NCBI GenBank assembly: GCA_025642075.2
Contig: JAODUO010000040.1
Coordinates: 532,001-596,000, forward strand
Length of the DNA: 64,000 nt
From: Ridgeia piscesae
Lineage: Eukaryota > Annelida > Polychaeta > Sabellida > Siboglinidae
Reading direction: 5' to 3'
Shown: positions 8,428-50,190 of the stretch, piece after piece
Layout of the letters: each line of letters starts with the position of its first letter
How positions within the stretch are numbered: the stretch's first letter is position 1
Made by a program: the position numbers and the translations under genes
The notes under the pieces: generated by a model
What the model was told of the DNA's origin: nothing
The model's input: the letters and a program-made list of their open reading frames with translations, nothing else
Database searches by the model: none

Positions 8428-8853
8428 CACATCACATAGCTAGAAGGATGCCACCCATCACTGTCCACATCACATAGCTAGAAGGATGCCACCCATCACT
8501 GTCCACATCACATAGCTAGAAGGATGCCACCCATCACTGTCCACATCACATAGCTAGAAGGATGCCACCCATCACTGTCCACATCACATAGCTAGAAGGA
8601 TGCCACCCATCACTGTCCACATCACATAGCTAGAAGGATGCCACCCATCCCTGTCCACATCACATAGCTAGAAGGATGCCACCCATCCCTGTCCACATCA
8701 CATAGCTAGAAGGATGCCACCCATCACTGTCCACATCACATAGCTAGAAGGATGCCACCCATCACTGTCCACATCACATAGCTAGAAGGATGCCACCCAT
8801 CACTGTCCACATCACATAGCTAGAAGGATGCCACCCATCACTGTCCACATCAT
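8428..8853. repeat. 38-bp minisatellite starting at the caskin stop codon
   Basis: About 11.2 copies of a 38-bp unit containing cacatagctagaaggatgcc. In gene orientation each unit starts TGATGTGGACAGTG, and the real stop codon (TGA at 8850-8852) begins the first such segment. The array therefore occupies the start of the 3' UTR. Copies are nearly identical, with only an a/c change in ccatcactg versus ccatccctg. It appears to have expanded from the sequence at and after the stop. Confidence 0.95.
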
Positions 8854-8967
8854 TGAAGGGCAGGGTCACACTCCAACATGGCGTCCAGTTCGTCCGTGAG
8901 GTCTTGAAGCATGTTGCCAATGTCACTGAGAACGTCACCAGCGTCACCTGTCTTCTGTGCTGGTTGC
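8850..8967 (-). CDS. caskin: caskin terminal exon, C-terminal motif and stop
   Basis: Last coding exon. The acceptor TTTTACAG precedes 8967, and the first base completes a codon begun in the penultimate exon (AG+G, Arg). The exon encodes 38 residues and TGA. The peptide contains DIGNMLQDLTDELDAMLE, which matches the short acidic C-terminal motif at the end of vertebrate caskins. The family's C-terminal domain follows the proline-rich tail, as here. The stop codon is immediately followed by the 38-bp tandem array. Phase, acceptor and motif all agree, so I am confident. Confidence 0.92.
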
Positions 8968-11637
8968 CTGTAAAACAATAACTTGGTTATATTACACTGT
9001 TCGGCATGCTGCTGCAGGAATCATGTCAACTGTAGCAGCACTCAAAACATGGTCACTTTATGAATCTTCATTTTGCATGTTCTTACAAATGTAAATTTAG
9101 TAAAGTGGTAAAACTATCCTTCCCTTTTCTGGCGCTACAGACTCAGAAGACAGTTTCCCAGGTTACATGTATTTGACACTTGCAATTATGTAAATTTGAG
9201 TAGAACTGACCACGATCCCGCCTCCACTGACCTAGACCAGCCTCCACTGACCTAGACCCGCCTCCACTGACCTAGACCACCTCCACTAACCTAGATCCCG
9301 CCTCCACTGACTTAGATCCCACCTCCACTGACCTAGACAAGCCTCCATTGACCTAGATTCCGCATCCACTGACCTAGACCAGCCTCCATTGACCTAGATC
9401 CCACCTCCACTGACCTAAATCCCGCCTCCACTGACCTAGATCCCACATCCACTGACCTAGACCAGCCTCCACTGACCTAGACCACCTCCACTGACCTAGA
9501 CCAGCCTCCACTGACCTAAATCCTGCATCCACTGATCTAGATCCTGCCTCCACTGACCTAGATCTCACCTCCACTGATCTAGATCCACCTCCACTTATCT
9601 AGATCCCACCTCCACTGATCTAGATCCCACCTCCACTGATCTAGATCCCACCTCCACTGACCTAGATCCCACCTCCACTGACCTAGATCCCACCTCCACT
9701 GACCTAGATCCCACCTCCACTTATCTAGGTCCCGCCTCCAGTGATCTAGATCCCACCTCCACTGATCTAGATCCCACCTCCACTGATCTAGATCCCACCT
9801 CCACTGATCTAGATCCCACCTCCACTTATCTAGATCCCACCTCCACTGATCTAGATCCCACCTCCACTGATCTAGGTCCCGCCTCCAGTGATCTAGATCC
9901 CACCTCCACTGATCTTGATCCCACCTCCATGACATCTAGATCCCAAGCCTCCACTGACTGATCCCCCTCCATACAGATCCCACCTCCATTGATCTAGATC
10001 CCACCTCCACTGATCTTGATCCCACCTCCACTGATCTAGATCCCACCTCCACTGATCTAGATCCCACCTCCACTGACCTAGATCCCACCTCCACTGACCT
10101 AGATCCCACCTCCACTTATCTAGGTCCCGCCTCCAGTGATCTAGATCCCACCTCCACTGATCTTGATCCCACCTCCATTAATCTAGATCCCACCTCCACT
10201 GATCTAGATCCCACCTCCACTGATCTTGATCCCACCTCCACTGATCTAGATCCCACCTCCACTGATCTAGATCCCACCTCCACTGACCTAGATCCCACCT
10301 CCACTGACCTAGATCCCACCTCCACTTATCTAGGTCCCACCTCCACTGATCTTGATCCCACCTCCATGATCTAGATCCCACCTCCACTGATCTAGATCCC
10401 ACCTCCAGTGATCTAGATCCCACTTCCATTGATCTAGATCCCACCTCCACTGATCTAGATCCCGCCTCCACTGATCTAGATCCCACCTCCACTGACCTAG
10501 ATCCCACCTCCACTGACCTAGATCCCACCTCCACTGATCTAGATCCCACCTCCACTGACCTAGATCCCACCTCCACTGACCTAGATCCCACCTCCACTGA
10601 TCTAGATCCCACCTCCACTGATCTAGATCCGCCTCCATTGATCTAGATCCCGCCTCCACTGATCCTAGGTCCGCTCCAGTGATCTAGATCCCACCTCCAC
10701 TGACTTGATCCCACCTCCAGTGACGCAGAGCCCCTTCCATGATCTAGATCTCCTCCACTGACTAGATCCCACCTCCACTGATCTAGATCCCGCCTCCACT
10801 GACCGAGATCCCACCTCCACTGACCTAGATCCCACCTCCACTGACCTAAATCCCACATCCACTTATCTAGATCCCACCTCCACTGATCTAGATCCCACCT
10901 CCACTGATCTAGATCCCACCTCCACTGATCTAGATCCCACCTCCACTGATCTAAATCCCACATCCACTTATCTAGATCCCACCTCCACTGATCTAGATCC
11001 AGCCTCCATTGATCTAGATTCCACCTCCAGTGATCTAGATCCCACTTCCATTGATCTAGATCCCGCCTCCACTGACCGAGATCCCACCTCCACTGATCTA
11101 GATCCCACTTCCATTGATCTAGATCCCGCCTCCACTGATCTAGATTCCACCTCCAGTGATCTAGATCCCATCTCCATTGATCTAGATCCCGCCTCCACTG
11201 ACCGAGATCCCACCCCCACTGATCTAGATCCCACCTCCACTGACCTAGATCCCACCTCCACTTATCTAGGTCCCGCCTCCAGTGATCTAGATCCCACCTC
11301 CACTGATCTTGATCCCACCTCCATTAATCTAGATCCAGCCTCCATTGATCTAGATCCCACCTCCAGTGATCTAGATCCTACTTCCATTGATCTAGATCCC
11401 GCCTCCACAGACCTAGACCTGCTTCCACTGATCTAGACCTGCCTCCACTGACCTAGATCCCGTCTCGACTGACCTAGACCCGCCTCCACTGATCTAGATC
11501 CCGCCTCCACTGACCTAGACCCGCCTCCACTGATCTAGACCTGCCTCCACTGACTTAGATCCCGCCTCCACTGACCTAGACCCGCCTCCACTGGTCTAGA
11601 TCCCGCCTCCACTGATCTATATCCCGCCTCAACTGAC
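8968..11637 (-). other. Last intron, 91 percent tandem repeat
   Basis: This intron separates the penultimate and terminal exons. Apart from about 240 bp next to the acceptor (8968-9211), it consists entirely of the 21-bp donor-derived array. Confidence 0.9.
9212..11637. repeat. 21-bp minisatellite templated on the penultimate exon's splice donor
   Basis: About 115 units of 21 bp. In gene orientation the unit is GTGGAGGCGGGATCTAG followed by GTCA. The true exon end reads GTGGAGGCGGGATCCAG|GTCAGT (11638/11637), so the unit is the last 17 exon bases plus the donor. Many units keep AG|GTCAGT, but many have AG|ATCAGT and have lost the GT. Variant blocks recur (for example the cttatctaggtcccgcctcc block near 9720, 10110 and 11255), showing higher-order duplication. 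The unit is seven codons long, so heptapeptide open frames here are by-products. Confidence 0.95.
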
Positions 11638-11737
11638 CTGGATCCCGCCTCCACTGCTGCCTGGTCCAGTCGTTTCGTGATCCCAATACTTTCCCTCCTC
11701 TGGGGAGCGGCAGGAGGAACCTTCCTTGAGTCTTCCC
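11638..11737 (-). CDS. caskin: caskin penultimate exon
   Basis: A 100-bp exon between acceptor TTCCCAG and donor CAG|GTCAGT. Its first two bases complete the glycine begun in the large exon (GAT CCA G|GG). It reads EDSRKVPPAAPQRRESIGIT and then KRLDQAAVEAGS, and leaves AG for the next exon. The peptide links the proline-rich tail to the C-terminal motif. Its 3' end is the founder of the 21-bp array filling the downstream intron. Reading through the donor stays open for a few heptapeptides before a stop. Phase agreement on both sides supports the call. Confidence 0.85.
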
Positions 11738-12308
11738 CTGGGAACACAGCAAACAACATCCTTTAGTTGGGTCACTTCTACACAAAGTCATCTTGGGGCA
11801 TTGTCAGCTGTGATTTGTCAGCATTCTCATTGTGATATGACCATTTTCATTGTTATTGGCCTGTTTAAACAAGTTATATAATAACGAAACTGTTGAATAA
11901 AACTTTGTCCATTAAAAGCAATGTTTAGTATGTAAGCTGAGAAGAATGTAACATTTACTCCTGACAACAAGATGTGTAACGAAAGGATAACAATAAACAA
12001 ATACAAAATGATAATTTTAAATAGGTCAAGGTACTATCTAACATAAAGTAACATACCAGTATACAGAAATAAGTTTCTTAACTATAATTCTTAGTGGAGC
12101 TTGTGGTACCCAACTATTTCACATTGACCTAGTTTAGATCATCGCAGAAGGAATAAATTTAAGAAATTACAATACATTTAAACGTTTATCTAATATGAAA
12201 AAATATCTTAAAATATAAGACTTTGACCACACTTGATCCAAACTGAACTTGCACACACACACACACAGTTTACAGTGATGTTTGCGAGTGCGCACACACA
12301 GCTCCTAC
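11738..12308 (-). other. Intron between tail exon and penultimate exon
   Basis: Ordinary AT-rich intron of 571 bp with a short CA run near 12250. I see no other feature. Confidence 0.8.
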
Positions 12309-14285
12309 CTGGATCAGTTGTGTCTGCCACGTAACCGTGTGCACTGTCCCCCTGGTCATCGTCCGTGCTAATTGCAACAACAGTCGTCTTGCTAGGAGGG
12401 TTGCGTTGCTTTATTGTTCCGACATTCTCGTTTGCAAACGGCAATGTGTTGGAGTCCGTGCTACACACGGAGACGTTTGACTCGAGACTGATCGTTGAGT
12501 CGTTGCGGCGGGGAGAGTCGTCACTCTCAGGTTTCGACTCTTTGGTCCGCAGTAGGCTCTCACTGTGAGTGATGGGTATAGGCACCGTCGAGGCACCACT
12601 GGAGCTCCTATAATCTGGTGCACTACTGGAGTTTGTGTAGGTTGATACACCACTAGTGTTTGTGTTGCCGGTGCTTGTATTGGCCGGTGCACTGGCACTC
12701 GCACTGGCACTGTTTGTGTAGTTTGTTGCACTGCTGGTATTTTTGTAGCTCAATGCACCGGTGGTGCTTGTATAGTTTGGTGCACTGCCGGTACTTGTAT
12801 AGTTTGGTGCACCGCCGGTATTTGTGTAGTTTGGTGCACCGCCGGTACTTGTGTAGTTTGGTGCACCGCCGGTACTTGTGTAGTTTGGTGCACCGCTGGT
12901 ACCTGCAGTCTTTCCAACTATGGTGGTGCATGGCGCGGCCTTCTGCTCGAGTCGTTTGATCACGTCACTCAAAGAGCTCTCAGAACCCGTTTCTACGAAG
13001 TTATCAACTGGACCAGTGGCACCGCCTGGTGGTGCTGCAGGTGTTGAGAAGCCAGCCTGTTTCTCAGGCACGTATGAGGGTTTTGGTGGCAACGGTTCGT
13101 GATGTTCAGCTTTATGCGCATTACTCCGTTCAGCCAGACTGGCCACACATGACGCAAACGCTTGCTGTGGCTTTTGCTGCTGAGGCACAAATGTTGATCC
13201 TGAGGCAGCGTTAGCCGCAGAGACAGTACACTGAGATGGCGCTGGTTTAGTCAAGGGCGCACGCATGTCACTTTTGATCGAGTTTGTGCGTTTCGGAGGT
13301 GGTGGTGGCACTGGTTTCTTAGTGCGTCCAATCTGGTAGTGTGCGGGCGTGTTGCCGGTAGCAACGTGATGTGCAGGTGAACATGGTGCACTGTGATTGG
13401 ACAACGGCCGCAACAATGACGTATCTTTATCGGCATCCACGACTGACCTGTTGTACGCCGCTTCCATCTGCTGCTCGTGCAACTTCGACGACGATTTCCG
13501 TGGCAGAGTATTTGACGAATACACTACAGAGGGCGCTACCGGTAGATCACTGGTTTTTAGCATTTCAACCGGAAACTCGCGGCTGATTCGCTTCGTCTTT
13601 GCGTAGATTTTCGCCACCGGTTTCGGCTTGATCGTGATTCGCGGGTTGATAACGGCCGTGTTCCTGCGAAGTGTTCCACCCGCCTGTTCGTCGGCCGGCA
13701 TCGACAACCCGCGTCGGTCATTCGTCGGCGTCAGGTCACCGCCGCTGTCCTCTGCCGACACAGTGTTGTCCCACTGGCCCAACGTACCGCCGTGAAACGA
13801 CGTGACAAGTGTTGGACCTTGTTCGCCACCGTCAACGACATCATCGGGTATATTACTGCCCCTTACTATGGGCGTGCGATTGACGTGGATTGCAACGACG
13901 TCGGGTTTATACACTAACGACTGCTTCGGGTGTCGCATGTGTACCATGTGTGTACCATCATCTCGCAGCGGTGTTGTCGGTTGACTCAGCGGCACCGCTT
14001 CGCTGACCGATGCGAGATTTTCGCCCGACACGCACCGACTTGGTTTGCCGTACCGCGCCCCATAGGCCGGAGACACGGGGGGTGGGTAATGTTTGGGCGA
14101 ACTGGGCGGGCCGTACTGGCGGGGTTTGGGCGAGTCAGTGTCCAGCCACTGGGGTGTGGGGAACGAGGATGCTGGCTCAAGGACCTCTGTTGAACCCTTG
14201 TGGTCAGCGGTGCTGGACAGTCGCTTGGAGTTTGAGTTGATGCGAGTGAGTCGGTCAATTGCCAGCATGATCTTCTTCTGGTGGC
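12309..14285 (-). CDS. caskin: caskin large exon: end of SAM2 and proline-rich tail
   Basis: A 1,977-bp exon between acceptor TGTCCAG and donor CAG|GTAGGA. It begins with GC, completing glycine, then HQKKIMLAIDRLTRI, the last helix of SAM2 (about residues 437-455 of the assembled fragment). The rest is low-complexity and proline/serine/threonine-rich. It includes a PPPPPP-KRTNSIKS motif near residue 760, KPKPVAKIYAKTKRI, EPLPPKPSYVPEKQ (likely SH3 or profilin ligands by family analogy) and an ETGSESSLSDVIKRLEQK segment. Residues about 897-954 are in-frame ten-residue repeats. One huge exon for the tail is usual for caskin genes. Translation stays open for 658 codons. Confidence 0.95.
12735..12905 (-). 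repeat. Coding 30-bp repeat, STGGAPNYT units
   Basis: About six in-frame copies of a 30-bp unit inside the large caskin exon, encoding variants of GGAPNYTSTG. Copies nearest the exon's 5' side are the most alike; toward the 3' side they decay into GALSYKNTSS and SATNYTNS. The unit is a multiple of three, so the reading frame is kept. The NYT triplets look like glycosylation sequons but the protein is predicted cytosolic, so this is probably not meaningful. Confidence 0.9.
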
Positions 14286-14788
14286 CTGGACACAGAATGT
14301 ACCAGCTATCAAATCAGTACACAGTCACTCAAATCTGTACAAAAACATACAATTATCAAATCTATACATAACAAACATCAAATCTAATACACAAAGGGTA
14401 CACAATTATCAAATCTGTACATACTGACATCAATTCTTCTTAAATAAAAAATAGATTCTTCTTCTTAAAAATCTAATATGTAAAACGTACGCAATTGTCT
14501 CATTTATGCACAGCTATCAAATATGCATACAACATATACACAATCAACAAATCTGTGCATACATCAAGTGATTTCAAGTGAGTACACAAAGTACTCGCAG
14601 CAGTCATGTGTCTGTCTCATCACATTTAATGTGAACATCTGTCATGAAGTAGAGAGCTAAACCAGCTCCACTTCCGCATTAGTCAATTGACCCACGCAGT
14701 CATATTGACACTAGACATGAGCTGAATGTGACACTGAGTGTCCTCACAGGTGAGTCCCACAGGTTGGCCGTAGGAGGTGACAGCGTAC
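14286..14788 (-). other. Intron inside SAM2
   Basis: A 503-bp phase-1 intron. Positions 14310-14560 hold a degenerate repeat around atcaaatctgtacata. No exon is seen. Confidence 0.8.
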
Positions 14789-14927
14789 CTAGCTTCTTGA
14801 TGCCTATCTCCTCCAGGTCCTCCCATGCAATGTCAGTGAGGGCGTCAATGGTGTCATAGCCCTGGCCCAGCAGGGTGTCATAGTAGTCCTCTAGGTGTAG
14901 TAGATTCAGCCAGCTCGCCACGTCACC
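14789..14927 (-). CDS. caskin: caskin exon: SAM2 domain
   Basis: A 139-bp exon between acceptor TTGTAG and donor CTAG|GTACGC. It encodes 46 residues starting GDVASWLNLLHLEDYYDTLL and including ALTDIAWEDLEEIGIKKLG, the classic SAM pattern (W, YY, LxxLxxEDLxEIGI, KLGH). The final G is completed by the next exon to give KLGHQKK. In caskins the tandem SAMs form polymers; this is SAM2. Phase 0 at its 5' end matches the SAM1-C exon. Its acceptor lies at the edge of a 20-bp tandem array that includes the first exon bases. Confidence 0.95.
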
Positions 14928-15610
14928 CTACAACACACCGTGTCACCTCATAACACCGTGTCACCTCATAACACACCGTGTCACCTCATAACACACCGTG
15001 TCACCTCATAACACACTGTGTCACCTCATAACACACTGTGTCACCTCATAACACACTGTGTCACCTCATAACACACTGTGTCACCTCATAACACACTGTG
15101 TCACCTCATAACACACCGTGTCACCTCATAACACACCGTGTCACCTCATAACACACCGTGTCACCTCATAACACACCGTGTCACCTCTTAACATACTGTG
15201 TCACCTCTTAACATACTGTGTCACCTCATAACACACCGTGTCACCTCATAATACACCGTGTCACCTCATAACACACCGTGTCACCTCATAACATACTGTG
15301 TCACCTCGTAACACACCGTGTCACCTCGTAACACACCGTGTCACCTCGTAACACACTGTGTCACCTCATAACACACCTTGTCACCTCATAACACACCATG
15401 TCACCTCATAACACACCGTGTCACCTCATAACACACCATGTCACCTCATAACACATCTCGCACAACACACCACGTCACCCTACAACACACCGTGTCACTT
15501 CATAACACACCGTGTCACCTCATAACACACCTTGTCACCTCATAACACACCATGTCACCTCATAACACATCTCGCACAACACACCACATCACCCTACAGC
15601 ATGCCATGTC
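14920..15610. repeat. 20-bp minisatellite templated on the SAM2 splice acceptor
   Basis: About 33 units of ctcataacacaccgtgtcac. In gene orientation the unit reads GGTGTGTTATGAGGTGACAC, and the real acceptor reads GGTGTGTTGTAG|GGTGACGTGG, so unit and acceptor share the boundary. The sequence cacgtcaccctacaacacac (and further bases), containing the acceptor and the first exon bases, is repeated exactly at 15471-15498. A third diverged copy lies near 15580. A larger block (15361-15480) is also duplicated (15521-15592). The array lies on the intronic side of the SAM2 exon. Confidence 0.92.
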
Positions 15611-16499
15611 ATCCCATAATACATCTTGTCACCCTACAATATTACACCATGTCACCATACAGCACACCATGACACTCCAGCACACCTCTTCACCCTACAA
15701 CACACATCATCTGACAACACACCAGTGACCACTTCATGCTACAACCCATCACGTCACCCTACAATACACATCATCTGACAGCACACTGTCACACATACCA
15801 TGTCACCCACTATACATTATCATGTTATACAAGTATTTACAACACAGTCAGAATTACACACCCCAGTAATAAGTGGCCAACACATCTTTACAAACATGAC
15901 ACTATGAACACAGTCTGCATTACACACTACAACTTACACAGTCAGCAATAGACATCTCCATAACACAGTGCACAATACACATCACAGAAACATACAATCA
16001 GCATTCACATTACAGCTATCGTTAATGGGGTAAGTTTCAAAACTCTAAATATGGAAGTGACACAATTGTGCTAATCACTAATCATGACTATTTATTATTA
16101 TTTAATCAGTAAACCCAGACTTTTTATAACATTTAACTATTTAGAATTACCATGCATGTACACACTCGTGAATGGGACAGCCATCCCAGATTTGATGGTC
16201 TCAAAATAAAGTTTTATCATTATTATTAAAACCTGTATAAACTGAAATACATCTGTCGTTGTCCTGCTACTTCATGAGCAGCTCCCAGCTCCCAGAGGCA
16301 GCGAGTGAGTCTAAATGATGACGCAGTTCTCAAAGCTGCTCCACTGGATGTGATCCAGCTGTTCTCATCCCACGTGTGTTTCCCAGGCACACTGCCAGGG
16401 ATCGCCACTACAATCAGGGAAGAACACAAGCAAGCCCATCCCCCAACATCCCTGTCTGACATCCGACAACATCTGGGAGCTGTCGGACGAGGCACCCAC
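15611..16499 (-). other. Intron remainder between SAM1-C and SAM2 exons
   Basis: Degraded copies of the cacaccatgtcac repeat fade out by about 15800. The rest (to 16270) is ordinary AT-rich intron, and 16270-16499 is unique sequence next to the SAM1-C donor. No further exon is recognised. Confidence 0.7.
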
Positions 16500-16601
16500 C
16501 GGTTTGAAGTCTGGGATGCCGTCGTGAATGTGCAGCTTGCTGATCTCTGCCTTGAGCCGTTTGCGATGCGCAGGCTTCGTGATGCCAATGGCCGTGAGGT
16601 C
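16500..16601 (-). CDS. caskin: caskin exon: C-terminal half of SAM1
   Basis: A 102-bp exon (34 codons, phase 0 at both ends) between acceptor TTTGCAG and donor CCG|GTGGGT. It encodes [20 protein letters not shown] and then [14 protein letters not shown]. The [21 protein letters not shown] block is the signature of caskin SAM1. The glutamate of EDL comes from the preceding exon (MTPE|DLTAIG). It is joined in phase to the SAM2 exon. Confidence 0.96.
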
Positions 16602-17039
16602 CTGCAAAGTTCAACACATTCAGTAAACCCTACACGGCTTGCGTCATGGGCAGTAACTCTTGCCTGGTAATCTGTGTGGTGTCAGCTATGTGTAGTATTT
16701 GCTGCTGATGTAGAATGGTTTCAGTTCCCAGAACTGTAGTCTTCAGCGGCAGCCGCAGATTGCATCAACAAACCACCGGGGACAACCCACTATTAGAAAC
16801 ATACTTTCAACATCACTCAATCAACCATTCCTCTACTGGCCCTATCTGTAGTTGGTAACTCACATCTGTGATGTATCTCATATTAAATGTACAGATCAGT
16901 TTCAAAGTGGGGATAGTATTAAACGTACGCAATTTGTTACATGTTCAAAAACATTCATACCATGCATGGTTAGATTTTAAACCATATCAAGACAAATGCT
17001 TCAAAAACCTTTTTTCAATGACAAGTTTACACACACATA

Positions 17040-17099
<60 letters not shown>

Positions 17100-17559
17100 T
17101 GCACATACAGTAGAAAGAACTGGACAATGTTTTAGAGATTTGTCAAGCCAGCACACACATCCTAACTATGCCTACATTCGACTGTCACCAACTACACTGC
17201 CTCGAACAAACCATAAAGACTGTACATAGCTGTACATAGATCACACATCCAGAAGTTTAAAAATTCCAAAAATGTTCTGTACGTTTGTTCATTCACAGGC
17301 AGTTGACAGGCGTGTGGGTGGCCTCAGTGCCTGCTCTGGCCGGCACAGCATATCACACATGGTGAACTACTTCCATATGTACCAGTAGCGCCACTGCTCA
17401 GTTGCCAACAGCTTTACATACAAACTCACAGATTCATATGATGGCTGTCACGCCTCGGGATTGTGGTACTGCAGAAGTTGATTATGTTTCTTCCGTGGCT
17501 GAACTGGTGTGAGTGCACCAATGCCAGATGTCATGACAGTGCAAGTGTTATGTGAATGG
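16602..17559 (-). other. Intron in SAM1, distal part
   Basis: Unique intron sequence with a (CGCA)n run at 17036-17100. No exon is seen. Confidence 0.75.
17036..17100. repeat. (GCAC)n microsatellite
   Basis: About 16 copies of the tetranucleotide cgca/gcac with an imperfect end (gcatgcacat). Confidence 0.95.
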
Positions 17560-18252
17560 ATTTACATCAGGTGACATGTGAGTGCTTTTGTTTCAGGTGA
17601 TAAGTGAATGCACTCATTTCAGGTATCATGTCAGTGCACTTTCTACATTGATCAATTTAATGCACATATTTGTAGTGTCGCTTTAATTGTTATGCAAGTG
17701 CACTTACCCCAGGTATCATGTGAGTGAACTTACTCCATGTGTCATATGAATGCCCTTACCCCAGGTGTCATGTGAATGAACTTACTCCATGTGTCATGTG
17801 AATGAACTTACTCCATGTGTCATATGAATGCATTTACCCCAGATGTCACGTGAGTGCACTTACTCCAGGTGTCATGTGAATGCATTTACCACAGGTGTCA
17901 TGTGAGTGACCTTACTCCAGGTGTCATGTGAATGCACTTACAACAGGTGTCATGTGAATGCACTTACCCAAGGTGTCATATAAATGCACTTACTCGAAGT
18001 GTCATGTGAGTACACACACTGCAGGTGTCATGTGAGTGCACTTACCCAGGTGTCATGTGAGTGCACACACTGCAGGTGTCATGAGAGTGCACTTACAACA
18101 GGTGTCATGTGAATGCACTTACTCCAAGTGTCATATAAAAGCATTTACTCCAAGTGTCATGTGAGTGCACACACTGCATGTGTCATGTGAGTGCACTTAC
18201 CTCTAGAGTCATGTGAGTGCACTTATTGCAGGTGTGACATGAGTGCACTTAC
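17560..18252. repeat. Degenerate ~26-bp array templated on the SAM1-N splice donor
   Basis: About 25 diverged units with the plus-strand core caggtgtcatgtgagtgcac. In gene orientation many units read GAGTAAGTGCACTCACATG, and the true boundary is CATGACACCTGAG|GTAAGTGCACTC at 18253/18252. The units therefore carry the exon end (catgacacct) and a donor-like GTAAGT. Some units have lost it (cacacactgcagg). The array is older and more diverged than those at 48 kb or 8.4 kb. Confidence 0.88.
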
Positions 18253-18363
18253 CTCAGGTGTCATGCGTGAGATGGTGGGCATGTCGTAGGCGGCCTGTGT
18301 GAACAGGGGGTAGTACTCCTCAAAGTGCAGCTCACTGAGCCAGGTGTGAAGTACCTTAGCATC
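18253..18363 (-). CDS. caskin: caskin exon: N-terminal half of SAM1
   Basis: A 111-bp exon (37 codons, phase 0 at both ends) between acceptor TTCACAG and donor GAG|GTAAGT. It encodes DAKVLHTWLSELHFEEYYPL, then FTQAAYDMPTISRMTPE. WLxELxFxxYYxLFxxAxYDMPTISRMTPE is diagnostic for caskin SAM1. The next exon supplies [10 protein letters not shown]. The downstream intron begins with an array of copies of this exon's donor. Confidence 0.96.
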
Positions 18364-19830: not shown

Positions 19831-19832
19831 GA

Positions 19833-21965: not shown

Positions 21966-22248
21966 CAACTATGTGTGTGCGCGTGTGTGTGTGTGGTGTG
22001 TGTGTATGTGGTGTAGTGTGTGTGGTGTGTGTGGTGTGTGTGTTTGTGTGTGGTGTGTGGTGGTGTGTGTGTGTGTGTGGTGTGTGGTGTGTGGTGTGTG
22101 GTGTGTGGTGTGTGTGTGTGGTGTGTGGTGTGTGGTGTGGTGTGTGCATGCGTGCATGCATGCGTGCGTACGTGCATGTCAGTCTCCGTCATAGTGTAGT
22201 CCAACTACATCGCAGGACATACATTCATGCATGCATGCATGCACGCAT

Positions 22249-34173: not shown

Positions 34174-34180
34174 ACACACA

Positions 34181-39800: not shown

Positions 39801-40546
39801 AGCCGCCAAATGGTTATGTGCATATTGACTGTGTGGTGTGTTGCTATCACATAATGCCCACACAATAGTACAATTCCTCTAACATCCGAAAAAAGCGCAA
39901 TCACATCAGTGTGCTCGATGTTCCTAGTGGAAACGGGAAAATATCAATACGGCGTTGGTGCACGTCCGACTAATGAACCATACACGCGTGCAATCGAATC
40001 TATTAGGTTATTCCTGCTCGTTTCTGCCGCACAATAAAATTAACTGTATAGATTTCCCAGCTTCTTCATCAGCAGATAGCTGGGCATTCAAATAATCTGT
40101 GTCTGCCGTGACGTGACACGCCAACACACAGGATGATGTAACTCACCTCGTGAAAGCAATTAAACTGATCCACTGTACAGGTGTATCAGATGACTCTGCC
40201 AATCCCTAGGTTTAAAAAACAAACAATACTACCGTAGACAGAAGGTGGATGATGAAGGCCACGGGAAGCGACCAACATATTGAGACCACGCAGACCACTC
40301 ACCACCAGTGACTTGAGAGGAACTTTATGTGGTAAAAGTAACAAGCAATAAACTCACTCTTCTCCCCATTTGACAGACAAAATACATATCAGTTAACTCG
40401 TGACTGAAAGACCATAGATATTTCAGCTGATGGTGATGTCAGAAAGACTAACACAAAACATTCCCGGAGACAGTCTTGACAAATGATTTCATGATACAGT
40501 TGATATTCATACTAAAAAGACAACATATTTCAGTTGATAATGGAAA
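36871..40546 (-). other. Intron sequence, no gene called
   Basis: AT-rich DNA with a small CAGAC-type repeat near 37820-37890. Open frames near 37300-37520 and 39030-39340 look partly protein-like, but they lack an ATG and donor in a usable phase. No TE is recognised. Confidence 0.5.
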
Positions 40547-41075
40547 GACCAATAATGTCAGTCGATGTTCATAACAGAAAGACTAATCATTTCAGTCGAT
40601 GTTCATAACAGAAAGACTAATCATTTCAGTTGATGTTCATAACAGAAAGACTAATCATTTCAGTTGGTGTTCATAACAGAAAGACTAAATGTTTCAGGTG
40701 ACGTTTATGACAGAAATACTATACAGGAGACATTTGAGTTGATGGTCATAACAGAAAGGCTAAATGTTTCAGGTGACGTTTATGACAGAAATACTATACA
40801 GGAGACATTTGAGTTGATGGTCATAACAGAAAGACTAGATGTTTCAGGTGACGTTTATGACAGAAATACTATACAGGAGACATTTGAGTTGATGGTCATA
40901 ACAGAAAGACTAAATGTTTCAGGTGACGTTTATGACAGAAATACTATACAGGAGACATTTGAGTTGATGGTCATAACAGAAAGACTAAATGTTTCAGGTG
41001 ACGTTTATGACAGAAATACTATACAGGAGACATTTGAGTTGATGGTCATAACAGAAAGACTAGATGTTTCATAAC
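40547..41075. repeat. Nested 34-bp and 75-bp tandem repeats
   Basis: Positions 40547-40690 hold about four copies of a 34-bp unit (ttcataacagaaagactaat core). Positions 40665-41070 hold five copies of a 75-bp unit that contains the same core plus caggtgacgtttatgacag and tactatacaggagacatttg. Because 75 is a multiple of three, the plus strand stays open with 25-residue repeats (VITERLNVSGDVYDR...). I regard that as incidental. Confidence 0.95.
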
Positions 41076-42660
41076 AGAAAGACCAACAGTAACGACACAC
41101 CTGTTCTGTGATGATGACAACAGATAGACAGGTGTTATTTCAGTTGAGTTGTGACAATCCTACCAGGACTGGCAGCAATACCACAGCTTCATTCCAGCTC
41201 ATTTCTAAAGTGCTTGTAGAAGACTGGTCATATGAGAGAGTGTCCACCACAGCTGTAGCAGGTATGGTGGGGTCATGACCTAATTGGGGTGGGGGAGGGT
41301 GACTGGGAGGTCAACAGGGTATTAGTCCTAGAGCCTGCTCCTGGTCCCCCCCCTCCCCTCCCTCTCTCTCTCATCCCATCCAATCACTCACACTCACGAT
41401 CAATATCTCCCAACTGATACGGAGCTGCACAATATTACGTGTCACATTTCTGTTATTGACTGAGCACATCTGACACCGACAATCATATGAAAATTAGAAT
41501 TATTAAAAAACCTCTGAACACCCATAGAATATTTATGTAAAAGAACACGTTTTATTGTTGAGATATGTTGAGACTTTTCTTGAGAGGCAGCTGTAAAGGA
41601 GACTGCTAAAGTTATTGTTGAAAATCTACCTACAACATTTTCTGAAGCACAATAACTGTAAAAATGTATGTACTGAACCAACAGAGCGAATCGTGAAACT
41701 GTAATGACATAAATTAAACTGTTTCATATTTGATACACATGAATGCACGCACACATGCACGCATGCACGCACGCAAACGCACGCACACACGCACACACAA
41801 ACACACACATTCATGCATGACCCACTACAGCCTTTTGTAGCAAGAATGCCACAAAGACACAGTTCCTCCCCGGCAGTCACAGAGTAAACTCTAAGCCAAA
41901 TGCACTTTTGCGGCTATAAACAGCCGAGAAGCAGACACTTATCTGCTGCCGTAACATCATATCTCCTGTAAACAGGCACACCCTCGGTGCTAACATTTCT
42001 ACACAACACTGCAGTACACAATGTGCCCTGCCTTCCAAACAGAAAGAAGTCTCCCAAAACACTTACCACAGGACACAACTAAACACCTCTGATGGATGAC
42101 ATTCATAAATTGTGCGTGTGTTCTGTCTATGAGTATATGTCCCACATACCTACAGCCACTGAAGACGGCTGTGGCATTATATTGTAATACAATCAGTCTG
42201 TGAGGCAAGAACTATGCTGCCGACATGTGGCGCCATCTACTGAATGAAAGGCACACTGCACCACCTGGTGAATGAAGTCGACACTACGCCATCTAATGAA
42301 CACACTTCTGAGAAGTGTCACAGTGGTTTGTTTTGTGTGGGGAAAAGGGGCTTGGGTAATGACAACAATATCCTGACCCTAACAGAATATATTTACTACA
42401 TTTCATGAGACCATAATCTCATCACTGACGCGCTGTTACTTGAAAAAGACATATTGTAACAGTATAAAAACTGCACAAAAAGCTTCACAGAAATGTAACT
42501 GCCCAACACGAGATGTTTCTAATATAGTCACGTTGCCTCAGTGACACAGTTTGCCAAATGAAGGGCATCTTTTGGTGGTCGAGAGAAATGCACCACCTGG
42601 TGAATGAAAGAAGAACTCCACCACCACCTGGTGAACATAAAGGGAAAGTGAAGTTCTTAC
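41076..42660 (-). other. Intron sequence, no gene called
   Basis: Unique DNA with a CA/GCA-rich run (41743-41810) and scattered caccacctggtgaatgaa motifs (near 42258, 42585 and 42615). No exon recognised. Confidence 0.6.
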
Positions 42661-42728
42661 CTGTGTCCCGGGAATCACTTGGTTCGAGTAACTCTGCTGC
42701 GGCGAGATTCCGCTATCACGGTCAGAGT
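42661..42728 (-). CDS. caskin: caskin exon: linker between SH3 and SAM
   Basis: A 68-bp exon between acceptor GGTTTCAG and donor ACAG|GTAAGA. Its first two bases complete Asp with the G from the 43,381 exon, giving YSRRDSDRDSGISPQQSY, then SNQVIPGTQ. It ends in phase 0, as the 23,442 exon requires. The peptide is a hydrophilic linker with no known domain. The call rests on good splice sites and exact phase on both sides. Confidence 0.85.
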
Positions 42729-43380
42729 CTGAAACCATGGCAACACAAGTTTAATAACATTATATGTAGCATGCAGGCAGTGGTAACTTTCAAACAAACT
42801 GTCCAAATCATCACTGTAGTAAATCAGTGCAATAATTATAATAAACAATCGTATAGTTTCATGTTAGTTTCATGTTCCAATCACTGCTACTACAGAATTA
42901 CCCGAGGCAAGGAGAGCCAAATTTTATAGCTGCAAAAGGCAATCTATCGCTGCAGTATTAAATTCTGGCTGGCATTCTTGAGTCATTAATTAAACACTAC
43001 CTGGAACTGCTTTATAAAACAGTTTGCGGGAGTGACGCCACGGGGCATTACGTCAATAAATGCAGGAGCTCGCCGCTCTAAACAATCAGCAAGCACATTG
43101 AAAATGCGACATCAATTAATTATGAAACGTCAACGAAAGCAGTAGTTAGACGCACAATAAGCAGAGAGCAATGGTGCAACTACGTCTACTAATGCACATG
43201 CATCTGACACCACGACAAATAACACCTGCATGCATGTACGTGCGTATATAACAGCCTGCATTTGAACACACCCAGCAACCAGGGATGGGTCACAGTTTTA
43301 AGTTCCTCGGTATTCAGCAAAAATTTGTTTCGCTTTTTTCCTTTCCACCACCACCACCACAGTCACGCTGACAAACTCAC
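42729..43380 (-). other. Intron, 652 bp
   Basis: AT-rich intron; nothing further seen. Confidence 0.85.
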
Positions 43381-43602
43381 CCCTGCGTGAATACTCCTTC
43401 CTCACTACCAAGGGAGAGGGTGGGGGAGGGAAAGTGTCATCGAGGCCAACGCTCGAATACGGCCCTACATCGAGGTGTGTCATCGGTGGGACGCAGGGTG
43501 GCGCCACCTGGCGGCTGATGAGGTCAGGCACAGGGTTCGTTAGGACGGGGTCCTGTGAGTTGTGCACATTGCCTGGCGATGAGGAGACATGAATGCCAGG
43601 TA
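43381..43602 (-). CDS. caskin: caskin exon: linker after SH3
   Basis: A 222-bp exon between acceptor CATTTTACAG and donor AGGG|GTGAGT. It completes Val (G|TA) after the SH3 exon and encodes PGIHVSSSPGNVHNSQDPVL, a proline-containing linker (LDDTFPPPPSPLVVRKEYS) and RR, leaving one G. The PPPPSP run may bind SH3 or EVH1 partners (inference). Phases match both neighbours. Confidence 0.85.
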
Positions 43603-43639
43603 CTGTAAAATGCAAGCGTTTCTCTATGTCACTGTCGAC

Positions 43640-43945
43640 GTCAGTGTCAATGTAACAAATGTCAGCGTCATGATGAGTGTCACCAAAGACCGTCATAATG
43701 AGTGTCATAAATAACACTCAAAATTAGTGTCAGTGTCATAAAGAGTCATGATGTGTGTCACCAACAACAGTGTCATAATCAGTGTCACCAACTGTGTCAT
43801 GTTGAGTGTCACTAACAACAGTCCCATGAGTGTCACCAAAAGCTATGTCACAATGAGTGACACGAATGACAGTATCGCAATTAATGTAATCAATGGGACT
43901 ACCATCAGTGTCACTAACGTCAAATACAGCATCAGTGAACACGGG
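43640..43945. repeat. Degenerate gtgtcaccaacaacagtgtc repeat
   Basis: About ten diverged ~27-bp units around agtgtcac and gtgtcataatgag. It lies just upstream (in gene sense) of the 43,602 acceptor, but its unit does not match that acceptor. Confidence 0.8.
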
Positions 43946-43984
43946 GATATGACTGACGTGGCACAGTCACAATTGGGACACGTC

Positions 43985-44132
43985 CTGCCCTGCCCTGCCC
44001 TGCCCTGCCCTGCCCTGCCCTGCCCTGCCCTGCCCTGCCCTGTCCTGTCCTGTCCTGTCCTGTCCTGTCCTGTCCTGTCCTGTCCTGTCCTGTCCTGTCC
44101 TGTCCTGTCCTGTCCTGTCCTGTCCTGTCCTG
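43985..44132. repeat. (CCTGC)n then (CCTGT)n pentanucleotide repeat
   Basis: About 11 copies of ccctg followed by about 18 copies of tcctg, a sharp switch of unit at 44040. Confidence 0.97.
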
Positions 44133-45635
44133 CTGTAAAAGATCACACCTTGCCACATCATCAGATTGTCGGCGGAAAATTTCCGTCACGACACCTGACT
44201 AAAAACACACGTCAACGTGACATAAGACCTGTTACCTGAGGACACGATCCACGGCCGTCTCTGTGCCGCCGCCCTTGGTCTTGTTTGACATTTTGAATGT
44301 GTGCCACCACTTGTTGACGCTATCAAGTGTTGTTTATTTATATCCACACACAAGTGTCCATCAAGACCCATTCAGCACGGTCCTTTCTCAGCCCACAAAG
44401 CTCAGATTGCAGGCAGGACAATCGGCCGTGCACCAGTGTGCAAACACAGTTATTACTGGACAAGCAGTGTATTAAGCAGTGACACTCTAAGCGGACTGTC
44501 GGCCTCTCGCTTCATTAACAAATACTACAGAAGATCGAGTAAACGTTGTGGGGGGCCCGGGTATAGACTCCAATATATGTCAGCGATCAAAGAGCGTAGA
44601 CTAAGTCCTGACAGATTACATTGTCTCTACCTTGTCGCAGCAGAACACGGGGGGACTTGGGTCTCACCAATTCTATGGAATTCAGACCCCACTGATGCTA
44701 AGTCAGTGGGAATATAATGTAATGGTGCCGCCACATGAAGGCTTATAATATTAGCCATGTTTACTGTACTCAGCTCCCAAGTGTTTGCGTCCCTCTGTTG
44801 ACAATTTGAACACTGGATGTACAATGCTGTAGGTGCTAGTGCTGTTGTTTTGATGTGCCTATCAGTGTGGGTTTGGGGCAGAGAGGGGAAAAAAGGCGCT
44901 AGTGGATTGTTGGATCTTGGGAGAACTGGTGTAGACTAATTTAAAAGGCATAAAAGTGGGAATTAATGAACTATCACAAATAAGCAAATCTACAAATTTG
45001 CTAATTACATTTGTCTTCATGGCTTGGCTTCAAATAAAAGATATTAAAGACATTATATTGCTATTTAGATAGCAAATGGTGAAGTTTGAGGAAAACTGCC
45101 CACAAAGATGTAAAAACACTGTTTCTTCACATCACCTTACATAGGGTGTGTGGACTTATAGGCTCTGCAAGAAAAACTCACATATTAATGTTTCTGGGAA
45201 TGGTGTGACATGTAGGTGATGTTCACCAGTCTGCCAGTTACGGGAATGTCTGCAAGCTAACAACTTTAACAAATAGTATACAGCCATCACATTTCATACA
45301 TCTCAGTACTACAAAGTCAACCTGATTCGACAACACGTTGACACAAACACTTAAACACCTGTCACCTTCAACACAGGCACTGACTGCACGACTACAGGCG
45401 ATCACTAAAGCATGCATGCATACTTAGCAACACACACTTGGTATCTATGACAACACGGTATCCATAGCAACACATGCATAACAACGATGACACACCAATC
45501 AGCACTGCCAACAGCAAGGGTGTTAGCACTCCGGGAAAATGCCAAAAGGATGCTACATTCACTGACGCAGTGGGAGAGGCAAGGTGTATGCCAGGGAGAA
45601 GTGGGTTGCGATGGGGGGAGGGAAAGGGGACTTAC
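44133..45635 (-). other. Intron sequence with one uncertain 5' exon-like element
   Basis: On the minus strand an ATG at 44291 opens MSNKTKGGGTETAVDRVL and ends at CTCAG|GTAACA, with TATAAATA 44 bp upstream (44335-44342). Its phase (two bases over) does not fit the next exons, so it is not called as coding. The rest is unique DNA. Confidence 0.45.
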
Positions 45636-45747
45636 CATGCGTATCGACGAGTACGACACAGGACGACGGGAAGTAGCCCGTCTTGGTGATCTGGCCGTCG
45701 GACGTCACATAGCCCTTCCACATCCCACTCGGATGCTGCTCCACCAC
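45636..45747 (-). CDS. caskin: caskin exon: C-terminal half of SH3
   Basis: A 112-bp exon between acceptor TCATCAG and donor CATG|GTAAGT. It encodes VVEQHPSGMWKGYVTSDGQ and then ITKTGYFPSSCVVLVDTH. The pattern VxEQHPxGxWKG...GYFPSxxVxxV is the second half of an SH3 fold, with the ligand-binding Trp and the GYFP motif, and closely resembles caskin SH3. It starts in phase 0 and leaves one base, completed by the 43,602 exon. The short sequence before the acceptor is not very pyrimidine-rich. Confidence 0.95.
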
Positions 45748-48003
45748 CTGATGACAACAGACAGACACGACGTCAACAGATGTCAAAGGACATTTTGCAT
45801 TTAGCACTGGTTCAAACCCTCACTCCACCAACACATGGGGGGGGGGTGAGACTCATAATTTGTTGGATCCAAAATTGCTTTTAGGCTCAGTTTGTGTTAC
45901 TGTGGTTTACTATAGGTGAGACGGCTGTAGTCAATGATTAAATTTGAATGTGGTGATGACCAACCAACCCCTATGTAATGTTTCAGGAGTGTTTTGACTT
46001 ACACAACCAGCCCTAAATGCACACATAGTTAATTCTTGCTATAAGTAGGATAATTTTAACTCATGGCTTATTACACAGGAACCCCAGACTACGTGGGTCA
46101 GTCTGGCTGTGTCCCGATGTCTGTCTGCTAATCCAGTTCTACTGCGGTGTCATTTCAAGATCGACTTTTATAGCTGCAACTACATAATACAGTAAATAAA
46201 CAGCCTTTCTAATGATATTCTCAAACAGGCAGCCGGGATCTGTGTCGGATATATTCAGTGATGTCATGGCGCCACAAAACGACCGCCTATGAGTAGACAA
46301 AAGAAGGAAACATAAGTAATAACAAGTTGCAACCAAGAAACGAATGCTCTATTGTGTTCTGTGCACTGCGCAGGCAAGGGCCATCTTCTTGGGTCAGAAA
46401 TCATGAGTGCGAGATAAAGCCAGCTCAGTTCATACGTGTAACGACTCAACTGTGCTATTTCCTCAACACAATACCAGCGACAGATTGACATCAGCACGAT
46501 GCTTTTAAAACGGCAGAAACTGTACAACTCGATCAGTAAAGTTACAAGATAACACGGGGAGCCATGCTTGCTGGGGTCACGGGGTCACAGGGCAGTGTTG
46601 TGGCGTTTCTGGTCAGCTGGGTAATTTAATAAGCACCGCGTGAAACATGAATGAGTCGGATGCGAGATTGGACATTTTCCGATCCAGATATAGTCGGGCG
46701 ATATTCTTTGGTCTGGTAGGGTTGTTAGACGGGGTGAAGAGGAGATAGCATCATGTGTGGCCACGGCTGGAGATTCAAAATTGCCGGTGTCGAAGGCGGC
46801 CAAGCGTGAAGTGTGTAACTATGTTGTGTTACTATTGAGAACACGACGTATGTTGTAATTACACGCAATCTCAATCGGCGTTCGAATAATCCAACGCCAG
46901 TGCACAGATGTGACGTTTTGTAGAAGACAATTGGCAGACCAGGCAGGGCCAGGGCCATGGTCACCTGCTTGGTGGTCATTCTCTCTACTCACTTCAATTA
47001 CTTCCTCTTGGCTTTTACCTGGTCTCCAGACTGGACACAATGTCGAGACAGAACAGTGACAATAATAACCATTTCAGAATGGTGAGGTTAATCACAAGAA
47101 ACCGTACAGGTCGTAAGACAAAATGAACGGAAATAGGACCAATAGGTCAAGGATTCTTTCTGCAGTGACATCGGAGAAACGCCAATTAAGCTGGTAACCG
47201 GAAAGTCCCATAAATACCTTCATTTATTCAATGGTGCATTCTGGGAAGGATGCCTGTGCTCATATAAAATAATATATTTTTCTCATTTATAATTTTTTTT
47301 ATTCTCAGACTAACCGAAAAGGCAGATTTTAAATTAAAACTCTGTATAACGAACTCTGACAGCTGCTCCCATAGAAGTCCAATATTAATGCCATACAGCA
47401 GCATCAGCCAAACTGGTTTGTGGAGATTATTTATTAAGATTGATGAACACATAACTCCAGCACTAGACTGTGAAAAAGCAACTGGTGATAAAATATTTTT
47501 ACTGAGATGGAGAAACCATGTCGATTTTATTGATGTTTTTCATGACTCTTGATACTCGACTCTAAAAAAACTGACAGTTTTCCTGCCAAGTGCATTTCTG
47601 TGGTTGTTTCCAAGGTTTCGCAAACAATCAGTGACCTATGTGGATGCCACTGTCGTTAACCAAGTTTTACTAAACCAATGTGAAACTAACAAAAAGTAGC
47701 TGTAAATGGCCTCAGTTGGCTTCAGATCCAGTTTCTAGTGAATGTAACATGGATCCACGCCCGCACGCCTCACATGTTCACGTATTCTGTGCCTAATGTG
47801 TGCACATTTGGCTTAGAATACATGTGTTATTGAGCTCTTTCTAACTGGATCCCTTCCTCTCTTAGACTGAACTCTGTGAACACAAAGACGTGCCACCGGG
47901 ACATTTTCACTAGTCAGTGTATCATGAAATAGTGTCCTCAACGACTCAACAGTGGCTTTCACATTCTCAAAATGCTCACTGTAGGTAATTAGTAACTAGT
48001 GCA
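45748..48003 (-). other. Intron inside SH3, unique part
   Basis: Unique AT-rich DNA with a run of Gs near 45839. It includes the uncertain first-exon candidate at 47019-47072. Confidence 0.65.
47019..47072 (-). CDS. Weak candidate alternative first exon inside the SH3 intron
   Basis: An ATG at 47072 opens MVIIVTVLSRHCVQSGDQ, ending at CCAG|GTAAAA in phase 0, which fits the SH3-C exon. -3 is G, +4 is G, and an in-frame TAA lies upstream. The isoform would contain only half an SH3 domain, which argues against it. It could be chance. Confidence 0.22.
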
Positions 48004-48031
48004 TTGTGAGGTAACTCCCTTGCTGTATTAG

Positions 48032-48246
48032 GTAGTGTCTTCTTGCTAACCACTCAAATACAAGTGCCCATTTTGTGTTGCTCTTATGTGGAATAAGGTT
48101 TAGGGTTATCTTTAGGATTAGTGTTAGGGTTTGGGTATGGGTTTGGGTTAGGGTTAGGTTGAAGGAACTTTTGACAAGATTGACACTAGGTGTTTTACAT
48201 GTATTTTAATGGGCACTTGTGTGAGTGGTTAGCAAGAAGCCACTAC
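48032..48246. mobile_element. Short inverted-repeat transposon (MITE), ~215 bp
   Basis: The left end GTAGTGTCTTCTTGCTAACC... and the right end (reverse complement GTAGTGGCTTCTTGCTAACC...) match over about 38 bp, ending in AAGTGCCCATT. The element is flanked by direct repeats tgctgtatta at 48021-48030 and 48247-48256, a 10-bp target duplication (8-10 bp, hAT-like size). The interior has telomere-like gggttagggttagg (48103-48160). There is no coding capacity. It sits inside a diverged copy of the 41-bp array unit. Confidence 0.8.
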
Positions 48247-49670
48247 TGCTGTATTATGGGTCGGTACTCACAGTGAGGTAGCTGCCCTGTTGTATTATGG
48301 GTCGGTACTCACAGTGAGGTAGCTGCCCTGTTGTATTATGGGTCGGTACTCACAGTGAGGTAGCTGCCCTGTTGTATTATGGGTCGGTACTCACAGTGAG
48401 GTAGCTGCCCTGTTGTATTATGGGTAGGTACTCACAGTGAGGTAGCTGCCCTGTTGTATTATGGGTCGGTACTCACAGTGAGGTAGCTGCCCTGTTGTAT
48501 TATGGGTCGGTACTCACAGTGAGGTAGCTGCCCTGTTGTATTATGGGTCGGTACTCACAGTGAGGTAGCTGCCCTGTTGTATTATGGGTAGGTACTCACA
48601 GTGAGGTAGCTGCCCTGTTGTATTATGGGTAGGTACTCACAGTGAGGTAGCTGCCCTGTTGTATTATGGGTCGGTACTCACAGTGAGGTAGCTGCCCTGT
48701 TGTATTATGGGTCGGTACTCACAGTGAGGTAGCTGCCCTGTTGTATTATGGGTCGGTACTCACAGTGAGGTAGCTGCCCTGTTGTATTATGGGTCGGTAC
48801 TCACAGTGAGGTAGCTGCCCTGTTGTATTATGGGTCGGTACTCACAGTGAGGTAGCTGCCCTGTTGTATTATGGGTCGGTACTCACAGTGAGGTAGCTGC
48901 CCTGTTGTATTATGGGTCGGTACTCACAGTGAGGTAGCTGCCCTGTTGTATTATGGGTCGTTACTCACAGTGAGGTAGCTGCCCTGTTGTATTATGGGTC
49001 GGTACTCACAGTGAGGTAGCTGCCCTGTTGTATTATGGGTGGTACTCACAGTGAGGTAGCTGCCCTGTTGTATTATGGGTAGGTACTCACAGTGAGGTAG
49101 CTGCCCTTTGATATGGGTAGGTACTCACAGTGAGGTAGCTGCCCTGTTGTATTATGGGTCGGTACTCACAGTGAGGTAGCTGCCCTGTTGTATTATGGGT
49201 CGGTACTCACAGTGAGGTAGCTGCCCTGTTGTATTATGGGTCGGTACTCACAGTGAGGTAGCTGCCCTGTTGTATTATGGGTCGGTACTCACAGTGAGGT
49301 AGCTGCCCTGTTGTATTATGGGTCGGTACTCACAGTGAGGTAGCTGCCCTGTTGTATTATGGGTCGGTACTCACAGTGAGGTAGCTGCCCTGTTGTATTA
49401 TGGGTCGGTACTCACAGTGAGGTAGCTGCCCTGTTGTATTATGGGTCGGTACTCACAGTGAGGTAGCTGCCCTGTTGTATTATGGGTCGGTACTCACAGT
49501 GAGGTAGCTGCCCTGTTGTATTATGGGTAGGTACTCACAGTGAGGTAGCTGCCCTGTTGTATTATGGGTAGGTACTCACAGTGAGGTAGCTGCCCTGTTG
49601 TATTATGGGTAGGTACTCACAGTGAGGTAGCTGCCCTGTTGTATTATGGGTAGGTACTCACAGTGAGGTA
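48247..49670. repeat. 41-bp minisatellite templated on the SH3-N splice donor
   Basis: About 34 nearly identical 41-bp units. In gene orientation each reads GGGCAGCTACCTCACT|GTGAGTACC and then ACCCATAATACAACA. The first 16 bases equal the 3' end of the SH3-N exon and the next nine its intron start (49662/49661). Variants are a single c/a change (gggtcggt versus gggtaggt) and rare short deletions near 49040 and 49110. Almost every unit keeps an intact donor. An older, diverged unit lies left of the inserted MITE (48004-48030). Confidence 0.97.
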
Positions 49671-49756
49671 GCTGCCCTCCTGGAAGCTGATGTGGTTTGC
49701 ACTCTGTGAGTTGAAGTAGGGTTTGATGGCCCGCACCTGAACCGCCCGACTCGCCT
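49662..49756 (-). CDS. caskin: caskin exon: N-terminal half of SH3
   Basis: A 95-bp exon between acceptor ATGTTACAG and donor CACT|GTGAGT. It needs one base from upstream (G would give Glu) and then encodes ASRAVQVRAIKPYFNSQSAN, continuing HISFQEGSYLT in phase 0. VQVRAIxPYxxxxxxxISFxEGxYLTV is the first half of the caskin SH3 (the ALYDY region is changed to AIKPYF). It joins VVEQHPSGMW in the next exon. Both sides are bounded by tandem arrays copied from its own acceptor and donor. Upstream ankyrin exons are outside the window or not recognised. Confidence 0.94.
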
Positions 49757-49796
49757 CTGTAACATAAACACAACCTGTGTAACAACTACTCATCAC

Positions 49797-50190
49797 TGTA
49801 ACACAAACACAAGTACTTTACCACAAACACAAGTACTGTAACACAAACACAAGTACTGTACCACAAACACAAGTACTGTAACACAAACACAAGTACTGTA
49901 ACACAAACACAAGTACTGTAACACAGACGCAAGTACTATAACATAGACGCAAGTACTGTAACACAAACACTGTACCACAAACACAAGTACTGTAACACAG
50001 ACACAAGTACTGTAACAAGACACAAGTACTGTAACACAGACCCAAGTACTGTAACACAAACACAAGTACGGTAACACAAACACAAGTACTGTACCACAAA
50101 CACAAGTACTGTAACACAAACACAAGTACTGTAATGTAAACACAAGTACTGTAACACAAACACAAGCACTGTAACACAAACACAACAATG
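49797..50190. repeat. 20-bp minisatellite resembling the SH3-N splice acceptor
   Basis: About 19 units of acacaagtactgtaacacaa. In gene orientation each contains TTTGTGTTACAG|TAC; the real acceptor is TTGTGTTTATGTTACAG|AGG at 49757. The array starts about 40 bp upstream of the true acceptor. Variants (ccacaaac, cagacgc) are mild. Confidence 0.92.

Follow-up and report, generated by a model that had tools for sequence, protein, structure and literature searches.

Minisatellite arrays on the exon boundaries and stop codon of a predicted Caskin gene in Ridgeia piscesae, with similar arrays in other genes

The window analysed here, 64,000 nucleotides of contig C40 of Ridgeia piscesae (C40:532001-596000, in an assembly of 628 Mb and 4,875 contigs; window coordinates below refer to the plus strand), carries on its minus strand a predicted Caskin gene in which tandem arrays lie on six exon boundaries: three donor and two acceptor splice sites and, as the sixth, the stop codon. 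That exon edges act as repeated seeds of tandem duplication, as the first-pass annotation of the window had it, is borne out by the same arrangement in 5 of 40 kinase exons sampled across the genome and in three further arrays on C40, and boundary arrays are thus a recurrent class in this genome. We consider it probable that they are boundary-born minisatellites ("mirages"), which arise at exon ends and survive where their copies are spliced out or left untranslated.

Exon edges were set independently of the arrays, by reading frame, protein homology and GT/AG signals. Judged from its sequence the gene is a Caskin orthologue: both its tandem SAM domains and its split SH3 have matches in Caskin-1 and Caskin-2 chains, six ankyrin exons were found in the sequence flanking the window, and the last exon resembles the Pfam Caskin-tail (E 9.6e-7; 29.6 bits, under the Pfam cut-off of 35) in a match that stops six residues short of the predicted stop codon. 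After splicing, a single open frame runs from ANKa to ANKd, from ANKd to SH3b, and from SAM1a to TAIL, up to the stop. The SAM1a donor and the SAM2a acceptor are spanned by gapless Caskin-1 alignments (the two shown), and the SH3a donor by one gapless alignment each with Caskin-1 and Caskin-2, while the SH3a acceptor was placed by phase and the C2 donor by open frame and GT alone. Exons between SH3b and preSAM are partly known, and the edges of CIDx and preSAM are tentative, since their phases as drawn do not join. The exons needed below, all on the minus strand, are the following.

8850..8967, minus strand, exon TAIL, the last coding exon (open frame; Pfam Caskin-tail)
11638..11737, minus strand, exon C2 (open frame and GT/AG only)
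12309..14285, minus strand, exon BIG (open frame)
14789..14927, minus strand, exon SAM2a (open frame; Caskin-1 alignment)
16500..16601, minus strand, exon SAM1b, whose edges bear no array (open frame; Caskin-1/Caskin-2 match)
18253..18363, minus strand, exon SAM1a (open frame; Caskin-1 alignment)
45636..45747, minus strand, exon SH3b (open frame; SH3 match to Caskins)
49662..49756, minus strand, exon SH3a, with an array at both ends (open frame; Caskin alignment; phase)

The boundary arrays were called by Tandem Repeats Finder (TRF) and their ends refined by wrap-around alignment, both of which support each entry below.

8427..8852, minus strand, 38 bp array of about 11 units, starting on the stop TGA (8850-8852)
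9205..11656 (TRF 9214-11656), minus strand, 21 bp array of 118 units at the C2 donor
14922..15737 (by alignment), minus strand, 20 bp array of 41 units at the SAM2a acceptor
17542..18265 (TRF 17697-18265), minus strand, 26 bp array of 27 full units at the SAM1a donor
48246..49678, minus strand, 41 bp array of 35 units at the SH3a donor
49757..50185 (TRF 49795-50185), minus strand, 20 bp array of 22 units at the SH3a acceptor

The SAM2a acceptor array corresponds to two TRF rows (14932-15569 and 14918-15724). Exon bases lie within all three donor arrays (17 at SH3a, 19 at C2, 13 at SAM1a) and within the SAM2a acceptor array (6-10), and none within that of the SH3a acceptor, whose unit matches the intron end as far as the AG and which extends through one poorly conserved unit to 49757, the intron base that abuts the exon. 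The stop-codon array takes in 3 coding bases, the TGA itself, and TGATGTGG is present in every aligned unit. That an array descends from its exon is best shown at SAM1a, where the exon is the source, because the unit holds bases coding part of MTPE, residues common with Caskin-1. The six units are unrelated to one another; as had been noted at first sight, they differ both in length (41, 26, 21, 20, 20 and 38 bp) and in sequence, the longest stretch identical between any two being 7 bp.

The first-pass placement of six arrays of one gene on exon boundaries is upheld by TRF, by alignment, by the independently placed edges and by a shuffle test, in which 6 of the 15 arrays considered (period at least 10, score at least 150; the GT-rich row 21972-22146 left out) end at an exon edge, against a null mean of 0.22 and a maximum of 4 in 100,000 shuffles. 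The observed count takes 49757 as the end of the SH3a acceptor array and becomes 5 with the TRF end, and the exon set used is incomplete between SH3b and preSAM. The consensus unit of each array was also compared with all Caskin exon edges, and the longest exact matches were prominent for three boundary arrays (33, 26 and 25 bp); this comparison accordingly sets these three clearly apart, but not SAM1a, C2 and the SH3a acceptor, which stay near the level of interior arrays. Support for SAM1a and C2 comes instead from the TRF array itself continuing into the exon, and for the array at the SH3a acceptor from in-register alignment, which makes it the weakest case of all six. Interior arrays as relics of other Caskin exons were rejected on exact edge matches of at most 12 bp, although the exact-match comparison separates the strongest cases only, C2's own array also reaching just 12 bp.

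It might be argued that introns of this animal are rich in minisatellites and that a gene was picked in which some of them happen to touch exons; arrays do occupy about 34 kb of the 302 kb read, and the window was chosen for the pattern. The shuffle result, the independent cases on C40 and among the kinase exons, and the presence of the splice site itself inside the units make such a coincidence highly improbable. An artefact of assembly at repeats may be treated as negligible. Six contigs (C85, C117, C165, C73, C1160 and C2277) have lengths that are exact multiples of 2,500 (810000, 647500, 727500, 635000, 140000 and 70000), which suggests processed scaffolds cut at fixed steps, and copies of amphioxus mirages differed between assemblies (PMC3087553, PMC3902484). 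However, units of one array differ among themselves, and every array has its anchor in the exon that it adjoins.

Since the window had been picked for showing the pattern, other loci were examined. A search of the genome for the Pfam family Pkinase gave 135 matches, of which 40, on 39 contigs, were chosen before any flank was seen, the rule being a partial domain with an open frame of up to about 212 residues and no internal stop; about 250 bp were fetched on each side, and matches passed over despite the rule were second hits on a contig, likely copies, or lower in the list. Distinct loci number 37 of the 40, L054, L056, L057 and L060 being near-copies. Eight arrays (period at least 10, score at least 100) occur in these stretches, and five of them straddle a splice site that is contained in the unit.

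L033, acceptor array, 51 bp unit with 18 exon bases, PAK1-like
L041, acceptor array, 40 bp unit with 24 exon bases, PASK-like
L052, acceptor array, 36 bp unit with 11 exon bases, Chk1-like
L050, donor array, 34 bp unit with 31 exon bases, donor after residue 81 (the kinase matches listed end at residues 76-85)
L058, donor array, 38 bp unit with 18 exon bases, SIK3-like, match ending at the donor

The other three were rejected as boundary arrays: the second array of L041 lies some 85-95 bp off, that of L069 about 34 bp off, and that of L072 ends about 15-16 bp short of the acceptor and has a unit without AG. Boundary arrays are therefore found at 5 of at most 74 distinct kinase edges. The density of the other three arrays would predict 0.48 (P 1.4e-4) and, at its upper 95% limit, 1.4 (P 0.014); the interior density of the Caskin gene would predict 0.78 (P 1.3e-3). 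All were computed with 80 edges. The excess at exon edges anticipated by the first-pass annotation is thus present in a sample of exons, as distinct from the whole genome.

Further cases come from the next 220 kb of the contig (C40:614000-834000), for which about 70 exon edges are an estimate and not an annotation. Of 28 arrays there (period at least 10, score at least 100, simple repeats excluded), three are boundary arrays and a fourth is ambiguous, in two or three other genes.

C40:788507-790760, 35 bp array of 65 units at a donor of a gene with CUB and C-type lectin exons
C40:809123-810367, 31 bp array of 40 units at the donor of an LDL-A exon (LDL-A match under the Pfam cut-off)
C40:827616-828286, 40 bp array on the predicted stop codon of a claudin-like gene

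The first donor reads CTACGACGCAG|GTAAGT, and its exon, which ends at 788518, matches no Pfam family by itself and was defined by coding potential, frame and GT. The LDL-A exon may belong to the same gene as the CUB and C-type lectin exons. The first unit of the claudin-like array runs over the predicted stop and the nine codons before it. The ambiguous array (C40:811321-812074, LDLa2 exon, L030) has an 18 bp unit with GT, keeps the frame without a stop over most of its length, and can be taken either for a donor mirage or for an in-frame coding repeat. Two candidates were discarded: 781063-782419 begins about 60 bp past its exon, and 830467-830721 lies about 18 bp from the acceptor of an exon that is claudin-like, is loosely similar only, and was left out of the count.

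Taken together, the 14 boundary units (12 at splice sites, 2 at stop codons) measure 20-51 bp; the array occupies the non-coding side in 14 of 14 cases, and the unit has exon-derived content in 13 of them, while the sole array lying wholly inside a known coding exon is the one with the 27 bp unit in BIG. This anatomy can be accommodated by the following course of events. A short tandem duplication would start at an exon end, across a splice site or stop codon; an intact boundary copy would stay beside the exon, and the extra copies would land either in the intron, and be removed with it, or in the 3′ untranslated region (UTR). Duplication would be tolerated because one intact boundary adjoins the exon and the added copies fall in intron or 3′ UTR. 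Slippage or unequal exchange would then lengthen and homogenise the array on its non-coding side, because expansion into the exon would alter the protein, and in-frame arrays within exons, like that of BIG, would form the other surviving class. A single survival rule would in this way cover donors, acceptors and stops alike. We infer that splicing still uses the exon-proximal site and that the excess at edges is due to survival after birth at exon ends and not to splicing-linked mutation.

An alternative holds that exon edges are mutational hotspots, owing to transcription, splicing-linked RNA-DNA hybrids, nucleosome borders or base-composition steps, tolerance being secondary. It draws its strength from the density of arrays per bp, about 10 times higher at edges than in intron interiors, which exceeds what tolerance alone predicts. 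We nevertheless regard it as the less likely account, if still a serious competitor: stop codons, which are not splicing edges, also act as seeds, the L072 array stops short of its acceptor and lacks the site while the five other kinase arrays contain theirs, and no measurement made here bears on mutation rate.

Unit composition bears on whether the repeated splice sites are of use to the gene. The donor GT is intact in 35/35 units at SH3a, 42/118 at C2, 22/27 at SAM1a, 54/65 in the CUB gene and 22/40 at the LDL-A donor, and the acceptor AG in 31/41 at SAM2a and 19/22 at SH3a. At three of the five clear donors (C2, LDL-A and the CUB gene) GT is scarcer than other unit positions predict, as if some decoy donors had been selected against. 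If the exon is read through into the array, the frame stays open for 5 codons at SH3a, 9 at SAM1a, about 24 in the CUB gene and 34 at C2 before a stop is met, so that splicing from a decoy donor would do damage, whereas losing such a donor would do none. Selection for the copies as additional splice sites that buffer or regulate splicing agrees with the retention of GT or AG in most units of most arrays. Such a function is nonetheless very unlikely, given how few units keep GT at C2 and the LDL-A donor, the fact that elsewhere retention tracks the general likeness of units, and the stop-codon arrays, for which no such use exists. Unit uniformity is higher near the exon in SAM2a (0.97, falling to 0.79 far from it), in the ambiguous LDLa2 array (0.99 to 0.86) and, slightly, in SAM1a; in the remaining arrays it is flat or reversed with distance.

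Several points weigh against birth at exon ends followed by survival. Use of the exon-proximal splice site is, in the predicted genes, an assumption. Equal births combined with tolerance would not yield the roughly tenfold edge density, and either more births at exon ends or a longer life of arrays there would be required. Exon bases are absent from the SH3a acceptor array, and the longest exact matches for SAM1a (13 bp), C2 (12 bp) and the SH3a acceptor (8 bp) compare with up to 12 bp for interior arrays. The SH3a (35/35) and SAM1a (22/27) donors keep GT as often as other positions. Unit lengths that are not multiples of three (11 of 14) are near the two thirds expected by chance and prove nothing. 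The kinase sample is small, and its edge denominator is an upper bound that counts two per exon without locating them individually. Finally, no TRF row was seen to form a boundary array at the KDEL-receptor or POLG2 exons of C40, a result read from the rows as a whole and not edge by edge.

Among known systems the closest are the mirage minisatellites of lancelets, and the arrays described here work like them and probably are mirages. The amphioxus globin genes BflGb6 and BflGb9 bear mirages at 5′ and 3′ boundaries (PMC3087553, where the Adh3 mirages of amphioxus are also cited), and lancelet PGBD5 has repeats of 60 and 108 bp, in 2-7 copies, on or overlapping 5′ and 3′ splice sites (PMC3902484, which also cites TnC mirages). 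Amphioxus mirages likewise consist of boundary-spanning units at both kinds of site, 10-160 bp long, many copies having AG or GT (PMC3087553). Mirages are further characterised by an mRNA that stays normal although the copies are there and by array lengths that are unstable between or within individuals. Exon and intron sequence of one boundary is combined in the unit in 11 of our 12 splice-site arrays (the SH3a acceptor unit being intron only), the two stop-codon arrays combining coding and untranslated sequence instead; and both boundary types are represented, with 3 donors and 2 acceptors in Caskin and 2 donors and 3 acceptors among kinases. The present case differs from amphioxus in that a single gene bears five arrays on splice sites and one on its stop codon, with both ends of one exon affected, in that arrays reach up to 118 units, and in that a rate was obtained from sampled exons. 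The PGBD5 repeats also sit on splice sites but have few copies and overlap exons (PMC3902484). Because 3′ boundary duplications exist in lancelet globins (PMC3087553) and PGBD5 (PMC3902484), the acceptor arrays do not extend the known pattern, contrary to what the first-pass annotation supposed. The stop-codon form recurs in the claudin-like gene, and no such case was found in the passages and listings consulted from the literature searched, which was of open licence only; no genome-wide rate was found there either. Within that literature, the first sampled rate, the five splice-site arrays in one gene and the stop-codon arrays are new.

Other systems share single features with these arrays. 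In the Rogers model of intron gain by tandem duplication of an AGGT segment (PMC4974935) the duplication likewise carries splice signals and is spliced out, whereas here an existing intron is apparently lengthened instead of a new one formed. The dual-specific splice sites of UBC (PMC10809524) are similar in that every unit holds a splice site and splicing lessens the harm of expansion; there, however, the monomers are coding and introns are unit multiples, while here the units are short and intronic. Introners, one family spread over many introns, do not describe the arrays, given how little the six Caskin units share (those six compared).

Mirages have so far been reported gene by gene in lancelets. 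If several percent of exon edges carry boundary arrays, the origin of mirages becomes testable by counting and minisatellite birth is tied to exon position, and the arrays may then also come from a general process and not be a curiosity of a few lancelet genes. They would constitute a steady source of intron lengthening, of duplicated splice sites and perhaps of new introns, and they call for caution in gene prediction, because most units carry a plausible splice site. The bolder proposal, that exon ends are a major birthplace of minisatellites, with about 1 in 15 edges and thousands of cases in the genome under one survival rule, and, the animal not being a lancelet, that mirages are not lancelet-specific, is put forward tentatively, as a possibility that we doubt more than we credit.

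Some further repeats and duplications were seen in passing. Exon BIG contains an in-frame coding array at 12714-12902 (minus strand), whose 27 bp unit gives about 7 GGAPNYTST-like repeats, likely a length-variable stretch of the protein. The longest array of the window (2377-6578; 35 bp, 120 units) lies downstream of the Caskin gene, and an array of 26 units of 56 bp, 98% alike, occupies a Caskin intron at 62456-63912, away from known exon edges. A search of the genome for the GFP family gave no match, which speaks weakly against a lancelet, since all of the 14 control genomes likewise gave none (0/14) and short exons may be missed in such a search. The near-copies among the kinase loci are on different small contigs and about 97% alike, L056 from about base 200 on only. 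C40 also holds a pair of long open stretches, 710447-712344 (L020) and 720447-722180 (L021), that resemble each other closely and lie about 10 kb from one another in opposite orientation, as a recent inverted duplication would leave them.

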